Assembly (NCBI RefSeq): GCF_014653785.1
Contig: NZ_BNAS01000002.1
Coordinates: 656,807-720,806, forward strand
DNA from: Promicromonospora soli
Lineage (GTDB): Bacteria; Actinomycetota; Actinomycetes; Actinomycetales; Cellulomonadaceae
Length of the DNA: 64,000 nt
Direction of reading: 5' to 3'
In this document: in pieces, positions 6,234-59,400 of the stretch
How the letters are laid out: each line of letters begins with the position of its first letter
Numbering within the stretch: the first letter of the stretch is position 1
Notes under the pieces: model-generated
Databases searched by the model: none
Told to the model about the DNA's origin: nothing
Seen by the model: the letters and a program-made list of their open reading frames with translations, nothing else
Position numbers and translations under genes: made by a program

Positions 6234-6267
6234 GTCAGCTCCTTGCATGCTTCGGATCGGTGGATGT

Positions 6268-6324
6268 CGGTGGTCGAGCCTGTCGAGACCTCGCGCAGCC
6301 AGGTCTCGACAGGCTCGACCACCG
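6268..6324. repeat. REP-like inverted repeat in the gcvT-gcvH spacer
   Basis: Two perfectly complementary 24-base arms (6268-6291 and 6301-6324) around a nine-base loop. Each arm contains the core GGTCGAGCCTGTCGAGACC. The same core occurs as a single arm inside gcvP (8227-8249) and, imperfectly, twice inside anmK (29645-29690), so it is a dispersed repeat. Confidence 0.9.
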
Positions 6325-6329
6325 ATCGT

Positions 6330-7496: not shown

Positions 7497-7509
7497 AGAC
7501 TCTCCTTGG

Positions 7510-7568
7510 TTGTGGGCGTGATTCTTGCGACTACCTATCCCTTTTGGGCGCAACGATCACGCCCACAA
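7510..7568. repeat. Inverted repeat in the gcvP-gcvT spacer
   Basis: TTGTGGGCGTGAT (7510-7522) is exactly complementary to ATCACGCCCACAA (7556-7568). Inside, TTGCG pairs with CGCAA after a two-base internal loop. On the minus-strand transcript this hairpin ends directly before the gcvT Shine-Dalgarno sequence. It could stabilise or separate the gcvP and gcvT parts of the message. Confidence 0.75.
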
Positions 7569-7576
7569 CAAATGGG

Positions 7577-17308: not shown

Positions 17309-18355
17309 TCACACGTTGGTGACCGCGCCCTGGCCCGCCAAACCCGTGACGGGGCGCGCCTGCAGGATGAACGGCGAGCCGTCGTGCACGGCCCACTCCA
17401 CGTCCGTCGCGGCTCCGTACAGCTCCTCGATGCGGACGCCGAGCGCGGCGAGCCCCGCGGCCTGGGCGTCGGTGAGCGACGGCTCGTCCTGGAGCTCGGC
17501 GGGGACGGGCTCGTTCCGGGTTCCGTCATCGGCTCGGACGGTGCGCACCTCCTTGGTGCTCACCGTGGCATCGACGGCGCGGCCCACGCGCGCCACCAGG
17601 AAGGTGTCGGGCGTGACCTGCCCTCCGACGACCGCCTCCCCCAGTCCCCAGGCAGCGTTGATCAGCACGCGGTCCCGCGAGCCGGTCATCGGGTCGACGG
17701 TGAACAGGATGCCGGCCGTGTCGGCGTCGACCAGGTGCTGCACCACCACCGCGAGGGTCACCTCGTCGGCGGGTATGCGATGCCGCGCCCGGTAGCCGAT
17801 CGCGCGCGCCGTCCACAGGGAGGCCCAGCAGTCGCGGACCGCGCGCAGCAGCGCGTCCTCGCCTCGGACGTTGAGGAACGAGTCCTGCTGGCCGGCGAAC
17901 GACATGCCAGGCAGGTCCTCGGCGGTGGCGGAGGACCGGACGGCGACGGCGGGATAGCCGGCCTCGCTCGCATCGCCTGCGCCGCTTGCACCGCTTGCGC
18001 CGCGCATGGTGCGCAGCGCCGAGTACCCGGCCCGGACGGCGTCAGCCACCGCGGCCGGGATCTCCAGGGCCGCGAACACCTCGGTGATCCGCGCCGCCGC
18101 AGCCTCGTGGGTCTCGGGCCGGTTGGGGTCCACGTTCCTCGCCGCCGCGACGATGGCCCGCTGCGGAGCGCCGGTCACTGCCGCCCGGTAGGCGTCGGTG
18201 GTGACGTGAAATCCGCCAGGGACCGGCAGGCCCGCCGCTGCGAGGCGCGCCAGGGACGAGCACTTTCCGCCTGTCGTCTCCAGCCGGACCGCTGCGGGGT
18301 CCGCGAGGTCCAGCGCGAAGGGCTGACCGACATCAGTGATCACAGGGGCAGTCAA
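17309..18355 (-). CDS. Stand-alone PEP/pyruvate-binding ATP-grasp domain protein
   Basis: A 348-residue protein matching only the N-terminal ATP-binding domain of PEP synthase and rifampin phosphotransferase. Motifs: VRLETTGGKCSSLARLAAAGLPVPGGFHVTTDAYR, VAVRSSATAEDLPGMSFAGQQDSFLNVRG, AGILFTVDPMTGSRDRVLINAAWGLGEAVVGGQVTPDTFLV and EWAVHDGSPFILQARPVT. The swivelling phospho-histidine domain and the C-terminal domain of the full enzymes (about 800 residues) are missing, and no such gene follows. It may act with a separate domain encoded elsewhere, or be a degenerate survivor. An alanine/glycine/serine run (GASGASGAGDASEAG) interrupts the domain. The start is uncertain: TTG 18355 or GTG 18343. Confidence 0.82.
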   Translation of the reverse strand: MTAPVITDVGQPFALDLADPAAVRLETTGGKCSSLARLAAAGLPVPGGFHVTTDAYRAAVTGAPQRAIVAAARNVDPNRPETHEAAAARITEVFAALEIPAAVADAVRAGYSALRTMRGASGASGAGDASEAGYPAVAVRSSATAEDLPGMSFAGQQDSFLNVRGEDALLRAVRDCWASLWTARAIGYRARHRIPADEVTLAVVVQHLVDADTAGILFTVDPMTGSRDRVLINAAWGLGEAVVGGQVTPDTFLVARVGRAVDATVSTKEVRTVRADDGTRNEPVPAELQDEPSLTDAQAAGLAALGVRIEELYGAATDVEWAVHDGSPFILQARPVTGLAGQGAVTNV

Positions 18356-18412: not shown

Positions 18413-18658
18413 ATGGTCGCCTGCTCTCCCTCGTCCGCGCTCTTGCTCTCCGGCGACCCGCATCGCGCCGAGGAGCTGGTCCAGGCGACCTTCGAGCGCA
18501 CCTACCGCTCGTGGCGCAGGGCCCGCGACGGGGAGCCCAGGGCCTACGCCCGGCGCATCCTGCTCAACCTGCGAATCGACGGCTGGCGCCGGTCCCGGAC
18601 GAGGTCGTTCGCCATTTTCCCGACCCCAACTGACCTTCGATCTCGGGCGAGCACCTAG
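18413..18658 (+). pseudogene. Truncated ECF sigma factor remnant
   Basis: The frame encodes LLLSGDPHRAEELVQATFERTYRSWRRARDGEPRAYARRILLNLRIDGWRRSR, an unmistakable SigE-type sigma-70 region 2, then loses similarity at TRSFAIFPTPTDLRSRAST and stops. The first ~20 residues of region 2 and all of region 4 (promoter -35 binding) are absent, so no working sigma factor can be made. Similarity ends about 40 bases before the long inverted repeat at 18643-18752, suggesting that whatever placed the repeat also deleted the rest of the gene. Confidence 0.75.
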
Positions 18659-18752
18659 AAAGGTCCGCTTCGAGAACGCGATCTGGCATGGGTCTCGCAT
18701 CAGAATCATGCCGGATCGCGTTCTCGAAGCGGACCTTTCTAGGTGCGCCCGA
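18643..18752. repeat. Long hairpin, copy 1, after the exported-protein gene
   Basis: Arms 18651-18690 and 18707-18746 are complementary over 40 bases with a single G-T wobble, around a 16-base loop. After a two-base bulge, another six pairs (TCGGGC with GCCCGA) extend the stem. It begins four bases after the stop codon of the 18757-19935 gene. There is no U-run, so it is not a standard terminator. A second hairpin of the same design follows the paralogous gene (20054-20144). Confidence 0.92.
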
Positions 18753-18756
18753 CGGG

Positions 18757-19935
18757 CTATCTGACCGTGATGGTCACGGCGCGCTGCGACGGCGCCTGCA
18801 GGCCGGTGCCCGGGCACTTCGCGATCCACTGGCCCGAGGTGCTGGTGCTGACCGTCGTCCGGTAGATCCCGCGGGAACCCGTGCGGACGGTCTTGCGGTA
18901 GAACGGCCCGCGCGGACCAGCCGGATCGAAGTACAGGTTCACCGCCGTGTTCGGCGCCAGCAGGTTTGCGGCCTCACGATCCCTGATGAGCTGCACCTTG
19001 CGAACCGAACCGGTGAGCTCGATCGACCTCGGTCCGGTGAACGACGTCGATGATGCCGTGATGGTTGTGCTGCTGGCGCGGCGGACGCGAATGGTAGCTA
19101 TGGGCTCGTACGGGATGGGAATCCATGCATTATCTCTTGAGCCATTACCACTAGTATCCCAGGGGTCCGTGTAGACACTGAGCTTGCCATCGTAGTAAAT
19201 GTCATAGAGACCCGCGGGCTGCAGCGCGGACATGCGATAGGACGCCGTAAAGCTGTAATCCGTAAGCCATGTTCCATCGTGACCACCCAGATACCCACGA
19301 GCGTCGTACCCGCCCTCGGTGCGCCGGTTGCTCAGGTACGGCCCGCCGTCGCTGCTGGCGTAACCCGGGGTCAGGATCCCCGCTTCGAGATAGACGGTCT
19401 GTGGTTCTACCTTGGTGACGACATCCTGCGCGATAACGCGCATCTTCGCGGTGTAACCGTTCCTCGTCGCCGAGACCACGGTGGACCTCGCGGCCTGCCT
19501 GGTCGGGCGCCTCGTGAACGTCGCCTCGTTGCGTCCGTAGATCTCGCCCCCTGACTCCACAAGAACCTCGTACGTTCCGGAGGTACGGGGCCAGAACGTC
19601 TTGGCGAACCAGCCGACGTCATCGGTCACCACGGTCGCAACGGCGGTACGGGGCGCCGTACCGGCGGGGTCGAAGTAGATCGTGGCACCGACACCGATCA
19701 TGGGATCCCGCAGACCCTGGTCCCCGATGTACCCGTGGAGCTGGACAGGTTCACCGGCCGGCGCCCTGCTTGGCGCCAGTGACACTTCATAGCCGGTGTA
19801 CACAGCCTGCGACTCGATCGACCTCGTCTCTGCGTCGTCCGAGCCTGCGGCGGTCGCCGGTGGCCCGCCCACCAGGCTCCCGGCCAATACCAGCCCGAGC
19901 GCAGACGTGAACAGCTTTCGGGCACCGATGACCAT
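18757..19935 (-). CDS. Exported protein with C-terminal beta-sandwich-like module
   Basis: A 392-residue secreted protein; the signal peptide is ARKLFTSALGLVLAGSLVGG with cleavage probably after ATAA. Two similar modules are seen: residues about 45-135 (ATIYFDPAGTAPRTAVATVVTDDVGWFAKTFWPRTSGTYEVLVE) and about 285-390 (RRASSTTITASSTSF, ELTGSVRKVQL, VNLYFDPAGPRG, GIYRTTVSTSTSGQWIAK). The latter is shared with 20161-21696 and 13823-14986. No catalytic residues are evident. The middle (19110-19270) is clearly richer in A and T than its surroundings. ATG 19935 has GAGG seven bases upstream. Function unknown. Confidence 0.8.
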   Translation of the reverse strand: MVIGARKLFTSALGLVLAGSLVGGPPATAAGSDDAETRSIESQAVYTGYEVSLAPSRAPAGEPVQLHGYIGDQGLRDPMIGVGATIYFDPAGTAPRTAVATVVTDDVGWFAKTFWPRTSGTYEVLVESGGEIYGRNEATFTRRPTRQAARSTVVSATRNGYTAKMRVIAQDVVTKVEPQTVYLEAGILTPGYASSDGGPYLSNRRTEGGYDARGYLGGHDGTWLTDYSFTASYRMSALQPAGLYDIYYDGKLSVYTDPWDTSGNGSRDNAWIPIPYEPIATIRVRRASSTTITASSTSFTGPRSIELTGSVRKVQLIRDREAANLLAPNTAVNLYFDPAGPRGPFYRKTVRTGSRGIYRTTVSTSTSGQWIAKCPGTGLQAPSQRAVTITVR

Positions 19936-20053
19936 GGAGAAACCTCGCGGGAGGAGTGGGGCCCGAGAACCGGGAACAGGCCCAGATCCTGCCAGCCCTA
20001 GTGGGGCCGGAAGACGGCCGGGCGGAGATCTCCCGGGTGAACTTGTGGCCGGT

Positions 20054-20144
20054 CGACAGAAAGATCCGCCTCCACCACGCAGTTATGCATGCTATTTCGC
20101 GAGAACGCATGCGTAACTGCGTTGTGGAGGCGGACCTTTTGTCG
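20054..20144. repeat. Long hairpin, copy 2, after the paralogous exported-protein gene
   Basis: Arms 20054-20091 and 20108-20144 pair over about 37 positions with a few mismatches, around a 16-base loop, ending 16 bases from the stop codon of the 20161-21696 gene. It shares AGAAAG-TCCGC, ACGC and GCATG positions with copy 1, but the intervening bases differ in both arms so that pairing is kept. Confidence 0.9.
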
Positions 20145-20160
20145 GGCGTCGGACGACGCG

Positions 20161-21696
20161 CTAGTTGACCGTGATGGCCACAGTGCCCTTCGACGACGCC
20201 TGCAGGCTCGTACCGGAATACTTCGCGATCCACTGGCCCGACGTGCTGGTGACGACCGGCGTCGCGTAGGTCCCGTCGGATCCCGTGGTCACCGTCTTCG
20301 TGTAGACCGGCGCCGCCGAACCCGCCGGGTCGAAGTACAGCTTCACCGACACGTTCGGCGCAGGCCGGATCGCGGCGCCGCCCGTGCTGAGGAGCTGCAC
20401 CCTGCGGACATCACCCCGCAGGGTGATCGTCTTCGGCCCGGTGAACGACGTCTCGGACGCCGTGACGGTGGTGCTTGTCGCGCGCTTCACCACGATGGTC
20501 GTGACCGTTGAGTCCTGCACCAGCATGTCGTGCGTGCAGTTGCTCGCGCCGCTGGCGGCGTCGTTCGCGACCCAGTCAGGTGCGGAGCATGCCTTCATTG
20601 CGTCCCGGATGCCGATGTCGTACACGCCCGCCGGCAGCGTCGGGTTGAAGGTCAGGGTCGCGTGGCTCGTCCCGACCCCGGAGTGCACCAGCTCCTTCTG
20701 CACCTGGTACCCGTCCGGGAAACTGCCCTCACCGCGCCGGCTGGTGGCACTGACCCAACCGGAGGTCCCACCCACGGTGAAGTCGAGGCTGCCGACGTCG
20801 ACGCGCCGCAGCACGGGTGTCAGACCCACCACGACGTCGTGCGTCATCACGTGGTCGCCCGCAGTGAAGCCGTTCTGGGTAGCGCTGACCGAACCCTGCC
20901 GCAGGATGGTGTCACGGACCCGCTCGGCGGAGGTGATGGTCCACACCGCACGTGCGCCCGTCTCGGTCATCGGCATCTCCGCCCGCCACTTTCCGGACGC
21001 GCCGGGCTGCTGCCGGACCGTGAAGAAGCCGCGCGAGTCCGTCGTGAGGGTCGCCCGGTAGGTCTCCGGTGCGTCGCCAGTGGGGTCGAAGTAGAGCTTG
21101 ACCTCCTGCTCCGTGGCCGGCTCGTACTCGCCGGTTCCCAGGCTCCTGATGTTTGCGGCTCCCGAGACCGAGATCATCGAACCCGCGGGCGCGCTCGCCG
21201 TTGACGTCCAGATCATGGGGATGTTCCGCTGCGCCCGGAACGGCACCGCTACGGGGTCCGTGGTGCGGATCGGCACGTTGACCACTCCGTCGCTGGTCGT
21301 GATGGCGACCTCCGCGACGACGCTGACCTGGTAGATGCCCGGTGCGGCGTCCGCGGACAGCGGGACGTTCGAGGTCCACGCGTTCGCGGTCCCGGATGCG
21401 ACGAACTGCGTGCCCGCGAGGTCCCGGCCGTCCGGGTCGACCATGGTCATGCGTCCGGACCGGATCGCCGCAGACGTCCCGTTGTGCGTGATGCTGAGCG
21501 TCCCGGTGATGGACCCTTGCACGGCCGACCCCGGCGGCAACGAGATCTTCGCGGTGACGACCACGTCGTCCACCCGCATGGTCATGTTCCCCTCAGCGCC
21601 GCCGGGCGGCGCGGCGACGCCTGGCGGCGCGAAGCCAGCCACCATCAGTGCTGCCCCGAGCGCCATGCTCAGTGGCACACGCATCCTTGCTCTCAT
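20161..21696 (-). CDS. Exported multi-module protein, paralogue of 18757-19935
   Basis: A 511-residue secreted protein with signal peptide MRVPLSMALGAALMVAGFAP. At least two Ig-like or carboxypeptidase-regulatory-like modules carry the same LYFDP pattern: one at about residues 190-290 (VKLYFDPTGDAPETYRATLTTDSRGFFTVRQQPGASGKWRAEM) and one at the C-terminus (RATSTTVTASETSFTGPKTI, VKLYFDPAGSAAPVYTKTVTTGSDGTYATPVVTSTSGQWIAKYSG). A further N-terminal region (DDVVVTAKISLPPGSAVQG) is also beta-rich. Length differs from the neighbour by one added module, as expected from duplication. ATG 21696 is taken, with GAGGGGG upstream; ATG 21684 is possible. Function unknown. Confidence 0.8.
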   Translation of the reverse strand: MRARMRVPLSMALGAALMVAGFAPPGVAAPPGGAEGNMTMRVDDVVVTAKISLPPGSAVQGSITGTLSITHNGTSAAIRSGRMTMVDPDGRDLAGTQFVASGTANAWTSNVPLSADAAPGIYQVSVVAEVAITTSDGVVNVPIRTTDPVAVPFRAQRNIPMIWTSTASAPAGSMISVSGAANIRSLGTGEYEPATEQEVKLYFDPTGDAPETYRATLTTDSRGFFTVRQQPGASGKWRAEMPMTETGARAVWTITSAERVRDTILRQGSVSATQNGFTAGDHVMTHDVVVGLTPVLRRVDVGSLDFTVGGTSGWVSATSRRGEGSFPDGYQVQKELVHSGVGTSHATLTFNPTLPAGVYDIGIRDAMKACSAPDWVANDAASGASNCTHDMLVQDSTVTTIVVKRATSTTVTASETSFTGPKTITLRGDVRRVQLLSTGGAAIRPAPNVSVKLYFDPAGSAAPVYTKTVTTGSDGTYATPVVTSTSGQWIAKYSGTSLQASSKGTVAITVN

Positions 21697-33019: not shown

Positions 33020-33063
33020 CGGCCGAGGCAGTGACGTCCGAGCGGACGTCACTGCCTCGGCCG
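33020..33063 (+). terminator. Perfect 21-bp palindrome after the exported-protein gene
   Basis: Two complementary 21-base arms (33020-33040, 33043-33063) separated by AG, 20 bases after the stop. No U-run follows. It probably terminates or protects the message of the upstream gene. Confidence 0.6.
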
Positions 33064-33148: not shown

Positions 33149-33177
33149 AAGGCCCCGACTCTCTGAGTCGGGGCCTT
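33149..33177 (-). terminator. Hairpin after tRNA-Leu
   Basis: AAGGCCCCGACTC (33149-33161) pairs exactly with GAGTCGGGGCCTT (33165-33177). It lies just 3' of tRNA-Leu on the minus strand, consistent with its terminator; the U-tract is short. Confidence 0.6.
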
Positions 33178-43061: not shown

Positions 43062-43113
43062 CCCCTCCGACCCGGGACGCCCGGTCAGCAGAGCGCGGAC
43101 ATGGCGCCGTTGG

Positions 43114-43776
43114 TCACGAGGTGACCAGCGGCGCCATCCCCTTTGCCCGCTCGACGGAGCCCTCGAGCCCGCAGGTCTCGAGCCAGTTCGCGAGCAGCCG
43201 GTGCCCGCCCTCGGTGAGCACGGACTCGGGGTGGAACTGGACGCCGTGCAGCGGCAGCTCACGATGCTGCAGCCCCATGACGATGCCCGACGCCGTCGAG
43301 CAGGTCACCTCGAGCTCCCCCGGCACGCTGTCCGGAGTCACGGCCAGCGAGTGGTACCGCGTGGCGGTGAACGGCGTCGGCAGGCCGGCGAGGACCCCGG
43401 CACCGGAGTGCTCGACGAGGCTCGTCTTGCCGTGCATGAGCTCTGGCGCGTGCGTCACCTTGCCGCCGAACACCTCGGCGAGCGCCTGGTGTCCCAGGCA
43501 GACGCCGAGCATCGGGGTGCGTGACCGGGCGCAGGCGCGGATCACGTCCTCGGAGGCACCGGCCTCGGCGGGCGTACCGGGTCCGGGCGAGACGAGCACG
43601 CCGTCGTAGGGCACGGGGGAGCCGTCGCCGCCGTCGTACCAGTAGCGGCCATCGGCGTCGGGGGAGGGCACGGCGTCGTTCCGGACCACAACGGTCCGGG
43701 CGCCGATCTGGTCGAGGTAGCCGACGATCGTATAGACGAACGAGTCGTAGTTGTCGACGACAAGGATGCGCGTCAT
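43114..43776 (-). CDS. pabA: Glutamine amidotransferase (anthranilate/aminodeoxychorismate synthase component II)
   Basis: Supplies ammonia from glutamine to a partner synthase for tryptophan or folate. The 220-residue class I amidotransferase has the oxyanion motif VSPGPGTPAEAG, nucleophile Cys in LGVCLGHQALAEVFGG, and catalytic His/Glu in GVQFHPESVLT. In related actinobacteria this gene, next to the PknB operon, is annotated as PabA/TrpG and probably serves folate synthesis; the amphibolic role cannot be separated from sequence alone. It is convergent with pknB and lies nine bases downstream of a small membrane protein gene. Confidence 0.9.
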   Translation of the reverse strand: MTRILVVDNYDSFVYTIVGYLDQIGARTVVVRNDAVPSPDADGRYWYDGGDGSPVPYDGVLVSPGPGTPAEAGASEDVIRACARSRTPMLGVCLGHQALAEVFGGKVTHAPELMHGKTSLVEHSGAGVLAGLPTPFTATRYHSLAVTPDSVPGELEVTCSTASGIVMGLQHRELPLHGVQFHPESVLTEGGHRLLANWLETCGLEGSVERAKGMAPLVTS

Positions 43777-48905: not shown

Positions 48906-48924
48906 CTCAGCCCACCGCGCATGT

Positions 48925-48957
48925 CAGAAGGGCCTGGCCAGTGGCCAGGCCCTTCTG
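48925..48957. terminator. Bidirectional terminator-like hairpin
   Basis: CAGAAGGGCCTGGCC (48925-48939) pairs with GGCCAGGCCCTTCTG (48943-48957) around AGT, between two convergent genes. The U-run on either strand is weak. Confidence 0.65.
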
Positions 48958-49019
48958 TCATGGGCGCCTGCGCCTCGTATGCGAACGACGCCGACCACCG
49001 ACCGCCATCGAGCTCGTCG

Positions 49020-59323: not shown

Positions 59324-59367
59324 GCAAGTACACCCCAGGCTGCGCTGAGGCGCCGCTGAACTGAGAA

Positions 59368-59400
59368 GGGCTCCCCGGCCTCGGCCGGGGAGCCCTTTTT
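59368..59400 (+). terminator. Rho-independent terminator of the surface protein gene
   Basis: GGGCTCCCCGGCC and GGCCGGGGAGCCC pair perfectly around TC, followed by TTTTT (59396-59400), 45 bases after the stop. Confidence 0.93.

Follow-up and report, generated by a model that had tools for sequence, protein, structure and literature searches.

REP, BIME and REPIN sequences, with their RAYT transposases, are short palindromes, single or in inverted pairs, that lie dispersed outside genes in tens of copies or more. The hairpins described here, which we assign to a family designated A, resemble them in being dispersed, extragenic and numerous (22 loci in the genome of Promicromonospora soli and 16-78 two-strand matches per congener). 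They differ in that each has a single long stem, paired almost perfectly, where the REP-type elements have two small hairpins, and in that PF01797 was detected in none of 13 genomes.

Families of dispersed, intergenic stem-loop repeats are known in bacteria, and stem-loops are concentrated on the 3' sides of coding sequences, according to the portions of two surveys on which we draw (PMC2267715, PMC1590033). Our hairpins share with those families a common stem-loop and a dispersed, intergenic distribution. The surveys took in 40 genomes, at least three of them from high-GC Gram-positives, and exchange at orthologous gene ends was not met with in those portions of them. Terminators are usually thought to share structure but not sequence (stated in an excerpt of PMC5217627). 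According to the same excerpt, inverted pairs of uptake signals form terminators in Haemophilus and similar ones in Actinobacillus, and its authors regarded terminators made of repeated sequence in uptake-signal species as an unexpected find (PMC5217627). Here, as in that account of Haemophilus, a genome-specific repeat forms the stem at gene 3' ends, and inverted copies at gene ends were observed for family A; our stems, however, are much longer, with tens of copies per family, several families together and no known uptake role. Finally, U-poor, highly structured transcript ends ("HS-U-lack") have been reported in Streptomyces clavuligerus, with longer stems at bidirectional transcript ends (PMC8269248, in the part consulted). 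Like those ends, as that part presents them, and like high-GC actinobacterial terminators, our hairpins have a GC-rich stable stem and little or no U-run (PMC8269248). Unlike the S. clavuligerus ends, they have stems of about 30-70 bp and belong to dispersed sequence families that undergo exchange at orthologous gene ends.

Dispersed stem-loop repeats and terminators built from repeats were already known, and the exchange of palindrome families appears to be the new part; among the papers listed by our literature searches we met no report of these elements in Promicromonospora, nor of family exchange at orthologous ends. The sequence families of which gene ends in this genus are built would seem to spread, and to be swapped from one species to another. 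They offer a natural experiment in how long perfect stems arise, spread and stay paired, and they bear on the means by which transcripts may be ended in high-GC bacteria when a U-run is missing, both questions being directly testable in 13 genomes. The hairpins could, in addition, serve actinobacterial engineering as strong bidirectional terminators.

Two Long Hairpins Follow Paralogous Genes

The starting point was a stretch of 64,000 nucleotides of the P. soli genome (the window), in which a first-pass annotation had noted two long hairpins of one design (Table 1). Their existence was borne out by folding of the + strand, which gave -101.8 kcal/mol (z -13.2) for hairpin 1 and -73.0 kcal/mol (z -9.1) for hairpin 2, with none of 200 shuffles folding as well. 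The best inverted repeats without gaps reach a complementarity of 93% in hairpin 1 and 85% in hairpin 2, and whereas the window holds 10 palindromes with a score of at least 13, one third-order Markov copy of it holds none. The annotation had given both hairpins a 16-base loop, which is correct for hairpin 1 but not for hairpin 2, whose loop has 14 bases. In the fold, hairpin 1 reaches its copy-specific outer extension by way of a 2-nt bulge. The outer stem is common to both hairpins and inner differences are paired off, so that pairing is kept while letters differ, as had been noticed, although some changes are unmatched, an A.C pair close to the base of hairpin 2 among them.

Table 1. Positions of the hairpins, neighboring genes and other palindromes in the window
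Feature	Position	Strand	Description
Hairpin 1	18643..18752	n/a	Family A; inverted-repeat search, fold and covariance model
Hairpin 1, family core	18659-18738		
Hairpin 1, arms	18651-18690 / 18707-18746		
Hairpin 1, loop	18691-18706		
Hairpin 1, outer extension	to about 18643/18752		Copy-specific
Hairpin 2	20054..20144	n/a	Divergent family A member; position kept in genus
Hairpin 2, core	20060-20139		
Hairpin 2, arms	20060-20092 / 20107-20139		14-base loop
Hairpin 2, extension	about 20054-20144		
p1	18757..19935	-	Exported protein (from the N-terminus, first-pass annotation), 392 aa, no Pfam match
p2	20161..21696	-	Exported protein, 511 aa, p1 paralogue
Sigma factor remnant	18413-18655	+	ECF-type; Sigma70_r2, E 2e-10, 81-residue piece, match to about 18598
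Gene-end palindrome, GGTGGTCGAGC type	6267..6325	n/a	Relatives in L060, L130
Gene-end palindrome, TTGTTGTGGGCG type	7509..7569	n/a	Relatives in L009, L059, L123
Further intergenic palindromes beside gene ends	48916-48966, 33020-33063, 43101-43137, 59366-59397, 2324-2358, 33149-33177		

Hairpin 1 lies 4 nt past the stop codon of p1 and hairpin 2 lies 16 nt past that of p2, in agreement with the annotation, and the two genes are indeed paralogous: their products are 39% identical over 350 aa, and the 3' ends of the genes are 75% identical over 300 nt. The p2 product also shows weak, sub-cutoff matches to MG2/DUF4198/FixH. A tie between the hairpins and the C-terminal module shared by the two proteins, which the annotation had proposed to test, found no support in all-against-all BLASTP, where the genes that flank other copies showed no such module, and was rejected. 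The reading frame of the sigma factor remnant enters the foot of hairpin 1, which thus also lies 3' of that broken gene.

The annotation had further stated that the hairpins have no U-run. Indeed, a strict terminator scan, which asks for 5 or more T among 8 bases and for a loop of 3-8, flagged neither; each stem nevertheless ends in CTTT, and T is more frequent close to the ends of hairpins than further out (see below). Between positions 18000 and 21000 of the window, Rfam gave nothing above gathering and three sub-gathering matches to microRNA models, an identity that we rejected because all scores fell below gathering and any long hairpin fits such models.

A Palindrome Family Dispersed through the Genus

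A BLASTN search of the 5.38-Mb genome with hairpin 1 found 13 loci, hairpin 1 included, each on both strands, the 12 others matching over 73-79 nt; hairpin 2 is too diverged to be recovered in this way. The covariance-model search that the annotation had proposed was carried out with a model built on 14 copies. It found 22 loci in the P. soli genome, the last of them weak (E 0.0025), and had matches in 18 of 59 genomes, namely P. soli itself, all 12 congeners (with 16 to 78 two-strand matches apiece) and five further genomes. Among these five, G014 is strong (50 two-strand matches; at the one locus that was read, a long called ORF encloses the hairpin), whereas the weak matches in G025, G032, G034 and G056 may be merely long hairpins rather than family members.

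The unit is an almost perfect palindrome of about 78 bp, whose foot, AAGGTCCGCTTC...GAAGCGGACCTT, is fixed and whose upper stem varies. In an analysis of the edges of 52 copies, a few rows of which were misplaced by the pattern used, pairing is high out to about AAGGTCC/GGACCTT and has dropped to a background of 0.31 some six positions outside the TCC of the foot. Since pairing outside the unit is at background, nesting of hairpin into hairpin was rejected as a general rule; hairpin 1, in which pairing continues for 14 positions beyond the T of GGTCC, is an exception. An exact-pattern scan of genome contigs gave four matches, of which only that in Promicromonospora umidemergens is in a clean family hairpin; the other three are not in such hairpins and look like chance. 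At locus L099 (G003, site L008) we observed a lone half arm, CTGGAAGCGGACCTT, enclosed by a short GTGTGAG/CTCACAC palindrome; this may be an element that has decayed.

The position of hairpin 2 is kept across the genus. The stop codon of the p2 orthologue is followed by a family hairpin in 12 of 13 genomes, and in the thirteenth (G002) a family hairpin is present at the matching DNA, so that the position is occupied in all 13. Judging from match coordinates only, the element apparently persists there (G002:C16:33071-33239) with most of the adjoining p2 missing. The position of hairpin 1 is poorly kept: among three p1 orthologues, those in G005 and G010 are followed by a short form and that in G006 by no such hairpin. 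The short forms (L089 and L091) have a small loop and an outer foot like AGGTCCGCCTCCAG...CTGGAGGCGGACCT, less perfect in G010, and look as if the upper stem had been removed symmetrically.

Could the hairpins be selfish, non-autonomous repeats of a REPIN- or MITE-like kind, found at gene ends because other insertions harm the host or because they target hairpins? We regard this as unlikely. Such repeats would form discrete units with fairly sharp ends, as is the case here, and would be expected to vary widely in copy number, as do family A across the congeners and the further family D (none found in G006 and G007, at least 102 in G008); moreover, only five sites are common to the 22 P. soli copies and 20 copies from G001. 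A Y1/RAYT gene, however, was not found: at E 0.001 the Y1 transposase domain PF01797 had no match in any of the 13 genomes, whereas a control search was positive in 5 of 14 known genomes, and we accordingly rejected mobilization by RAYT/IS200. Nor were there clear target-site duplications, which a MITE would show and which we rejected for these copies: flanking direct repeats of at least 4 nt accompany 11 of 52 copies against 6.6 expected, none of them of 6 nt or more (4-mers alone, 9 against 4.4 expected), and family A searches of the P. soli genome (E 0.001) gave whole-hairpin matches only. Occupation of the p2 position in all 13 genomes by hairpins whose changes are compensated, and the greater frequency of long hairpins at orthologous than at background ends (reported below), also speak against this explanation.

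Pairing Is Kept While the Sequence Changes

We analyzed pairing in two alignments. Alignment A3 comprises 42 copies, 22 from P. soli and 20 of the 21 G001 loci (the weakest being left out); 28 of the 42 (8 from P. soli and the 20 from G001) had been found only by the model, which rewards pairing, and of the remainder 13 came from BLASTN and one is hairpin 2 of the first-pass annotation. Paired cells make up 87.3% of A3, falling to about 40% when the partner is slid by one column, and two-sided changes occur in 28 of 33 pairs. Two-sided cells number 237 against 87.6 in shuffles and against 44 one-sided standard cells, where cells count inheritance and not events; flips from G-C to C-G are common. 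Alignment A2 contains the 13 hairpins at the p2 position (window-20060), one per genome. Here 91.6% of cells are paired, and a two-sided change is seen in 15 of 34 pairs as compared to 9.3 in shuffles; the unpaired cells in columns 3-34 are 30 G.U, 13 A.C and 16 others. The covariation that had been claimed from two copies thus holds generally. The number of copies, their presence in relatives and the retention of pairing under sequence change together indicate that the hairpin itself is what is preserved, which partly supports the earlier suggestion that selection acts upon it.

Template switching between arms can create and repair perfect stems, according to the part of a published account used here (PMC8794818), and pairing might in principle be kept mainly by mutation of this kind, with arm-to-arm switching during replication and a hairpin of little function. 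The excess of two-sided over one-sided cells is what such a process would produce, as are the many G-C to C-G flips without a wobble intermediate. Inversion of the center, which would be its mark, is clearly the better match in the G000/G003 pair at site L053 (20 versus 14 of 22 letters), and at the p2 position 12 of 78 pairs score at least 2 better when inverted (a margin of 2-3 letters). Yet L053 is the only clear case among 11 same-family orthologous pairs (three more lean by 2 letters), and we rejected loop inversion as a general mark of template switching. Unpaired cells, moreover, persist, as A2 illustrates, and the position at gene ends and the foot shared by unrelated sites are left unexplained. 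As the main cause of pairing, then, template switching seems to us improbable, although it may contribute to the upkeep of pairing. The fold-back origin that the annotation had offered as an alternative to selection may likewise contribute: the preponderance of two-sided changes agrees with it and the rarity of clear loop inversion does not.

The Hairpins Lie at Gene Ends

Positions relative to genes were obtained with a codon-usage gene caller trained on the window. The 22 family A loci of P. soli are divided between convergent (10) and tandem (12) gaps, with none in a divergent gap; because 11 of the 37 window gaps longer than 40 nt are divergent, this would be expected with p 0.0006 under random placement. 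A facing stop codon is found within 43 nt of 21 of the 22 copies and at 106 nt from the exception. The same holds for long palindromes more broadly. Among 125 of them, 59 were convergent, 54 tandem and 4 divergent, with 3 in called genes and 5 at locus edges, and in the wider palindrome set 109 of 114 were no more than 50 nt from a facing stop (median 14). All 10 palindromes of the window that score at least 13 are intergenic and face the 3' end of a gene on at least one side, nine within 50 nt of it and one at 149 nt.

One Family Stands In for Another at Orthologous Gene Ends

The orthologous segments of 20 P. soli sites were searched for in G001, G003, G004 and G008, and the DNA past the stop codons was read; site L058, the G008 match of L056 and the G004 match of L054 are left out of the count. 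This yielded 64 ends at 19 sites, of which 11 (7 of them in G003) carry the same family, 29 another long hairpin and 24 none. When site L060 is omitted (its P. soli copy falls below the palindrome score, and two of its four orthologous ends have a hairpin and two do not), the 60 ends at the remaining 18 sites comprise 11 with the same family, 27 with a different hairpin and 22 with none. Thus, one family is exchanged for another at the same orthologous end. The 22 ends that have no long hairpin indicate that the hairpin is dispensable there.

Some long hairpin is nevertheless present at 38 of the 60 orthologous ends as compared to 25 of 94 pooled background ends (p 1e-5), a comparison in which expression was left unmatched and the four species do not provide independent sites. 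Taken separately, the backgrounds are 16 of 51 non-focal G000/G001 ends (p 0.001) and 9 of 43 window ends (p 2e-5), the latter including hairpins 1 and 2, which works against the claim of exchange. Background ends were filtered for a convergent arrangement or a gap of more than 60 nt; the unfiltered counts are 16 of 80 (G000/G001) and 9 of 57 (window).

Are the 27 different hairpins simply diverged copies of those they stand in for? Twenty-two fall into another sequence cluster and five into the same loose cluster of families A, B and C; single linkage joins these three and some others, and the five therefore count as distant subfamilies. For 23 of the 27 a relative was found elsewhere in the data set, at a locus that is not orthologous, and 18 of the 27 have a relative in the same genome, which argues that most replacements are other dispersed families and not copies that have diverged beyond recognition. 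An example is the tail-to-tail gap at site L053, which is occupied by family B in P. soli, a relative of B in G003, a D-related GAGGTAGTCAC hairpin in G004, family D in G008 and family F in G001, with gene sequence that is similar on both sides throughout. Beside the stop codon in the P. soli flank of this site, directly before the family B hairpin, is CGAGGTAG. This is the foot that the G004 and G008 families have at the site, and it is perhaps a relic of a replaced element.

A Candidate Role at the 3' Ends of mRNAs

The explanation that we favor, and consider probable, is that the hairpins are mRNA 3'-end elements, terminators or stabilizers that would often be bidirectional, drawn from swappable repeat families. 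The hairpin would form in the mRNA just past the stop codon and define or protect the 3' end of the transcript, acting as a transcription terminator or as a barrier to exonucleases. Because it would work on either strand, it could also be used between convergent genes. Pairing would be kept by selection, perhaps aided by arm-to-arm template switching, and exchange of families would come about as a discrete unit is copied by some route to new gene ends. The reasons for proposing a role at mRNA 3' ends are the proximity to stop codons, the avoidance of divergent gaps, the replaceability by other long hairpins and a mild enrichment of T, the frequency of which is 0.23-0.29 around hairpin ends and about 0.17 further out (161 ends); termination or stabilization as the job of the hairpins is what we infer from them.

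A stable hairpin right after stop codons, as is expected of a Rho-independent terminator, is found here, but we do not claim membership in that class in view of the failed U-tract test. Stems of about 30-70 bp far exceed the length needed for termination, which counts against reading the hairpins as terminators. The view of the first-pass annotation that they are not plain terminators is correct in that a strong U-run is missing, but a 3'-end role without a strong U-run would fit best. In tandem copies read in the sense of the gene, G.U cells outnumber A.C cells by 80 to 42, as compared to 50 and 48 in convergent controls; without the p2-orthologous loci the numbers are 52 and 38 (flip p 0.16), and since the asymmetry is carried mostly by the p2-orthologous copies, we rejected it as proof of action as RNA.

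A role at the level of DNA, as a cruciform or a protein-binding palindrome that marks gene ends as nucleoid sites or sites of conflict between replication and transcription, would make sense of near-perfect palindromy on both strands and of the near-invariant A.T pairs that are spaced along the stem across subfamilies in A3. The exchange between unrelated sequences, however, speaks against a sequence-specific binding protein, and the association of the hairpins with stop codons suggests a connection with transcripts; we judge this explanation very improbable. Within the favored reading, that of mRNA 3'-end elements, we tentatively entertain the possibility that a shared pool of unrelated, self-spreading long palindromes supplies the 3' ends of many genes, its members competing for these ends and displacing one another there. 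They would be interchangeable terminators that have no RAYT-type transposase, follow a copying route not yet described and are near-perfectly paired in each copy.

Other Palindrome Families

Finally, we note that several families (D, E, F and more) occupy gene ends likewise in the genus. Two-strand matches to family D number at least 67 in P. soli and at least 102 in G008, with none in G006 or G007 among the candidates scored, of which there were up to 40 per genome; family F has 40 in P. soli, 2 to 80 in the others that have it and none in G006. Of the P. soli copies taken from the head of each list, all 11 of family D have a facing stop codon no more than 26 nt away; among the eight of family F, six have one within 60 nt, the other two being at 148 nt and inside a called ORF. 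The arms of family D consist of two to four tandem units of 16-17 nt (CGAGGTAGAACCNNGG), both arms being lengthened together, and such arrays were seen at L150, L148 and L145 (G008) and L110 (G003). At about 1387-2807 of L176 (G012:C34), two family F hairpins flank a gene whose AbiEi-like matches are weak and sub-cutoff, and pairs of family F hairpins at similar spacing are also present in G003, G004 and G010.
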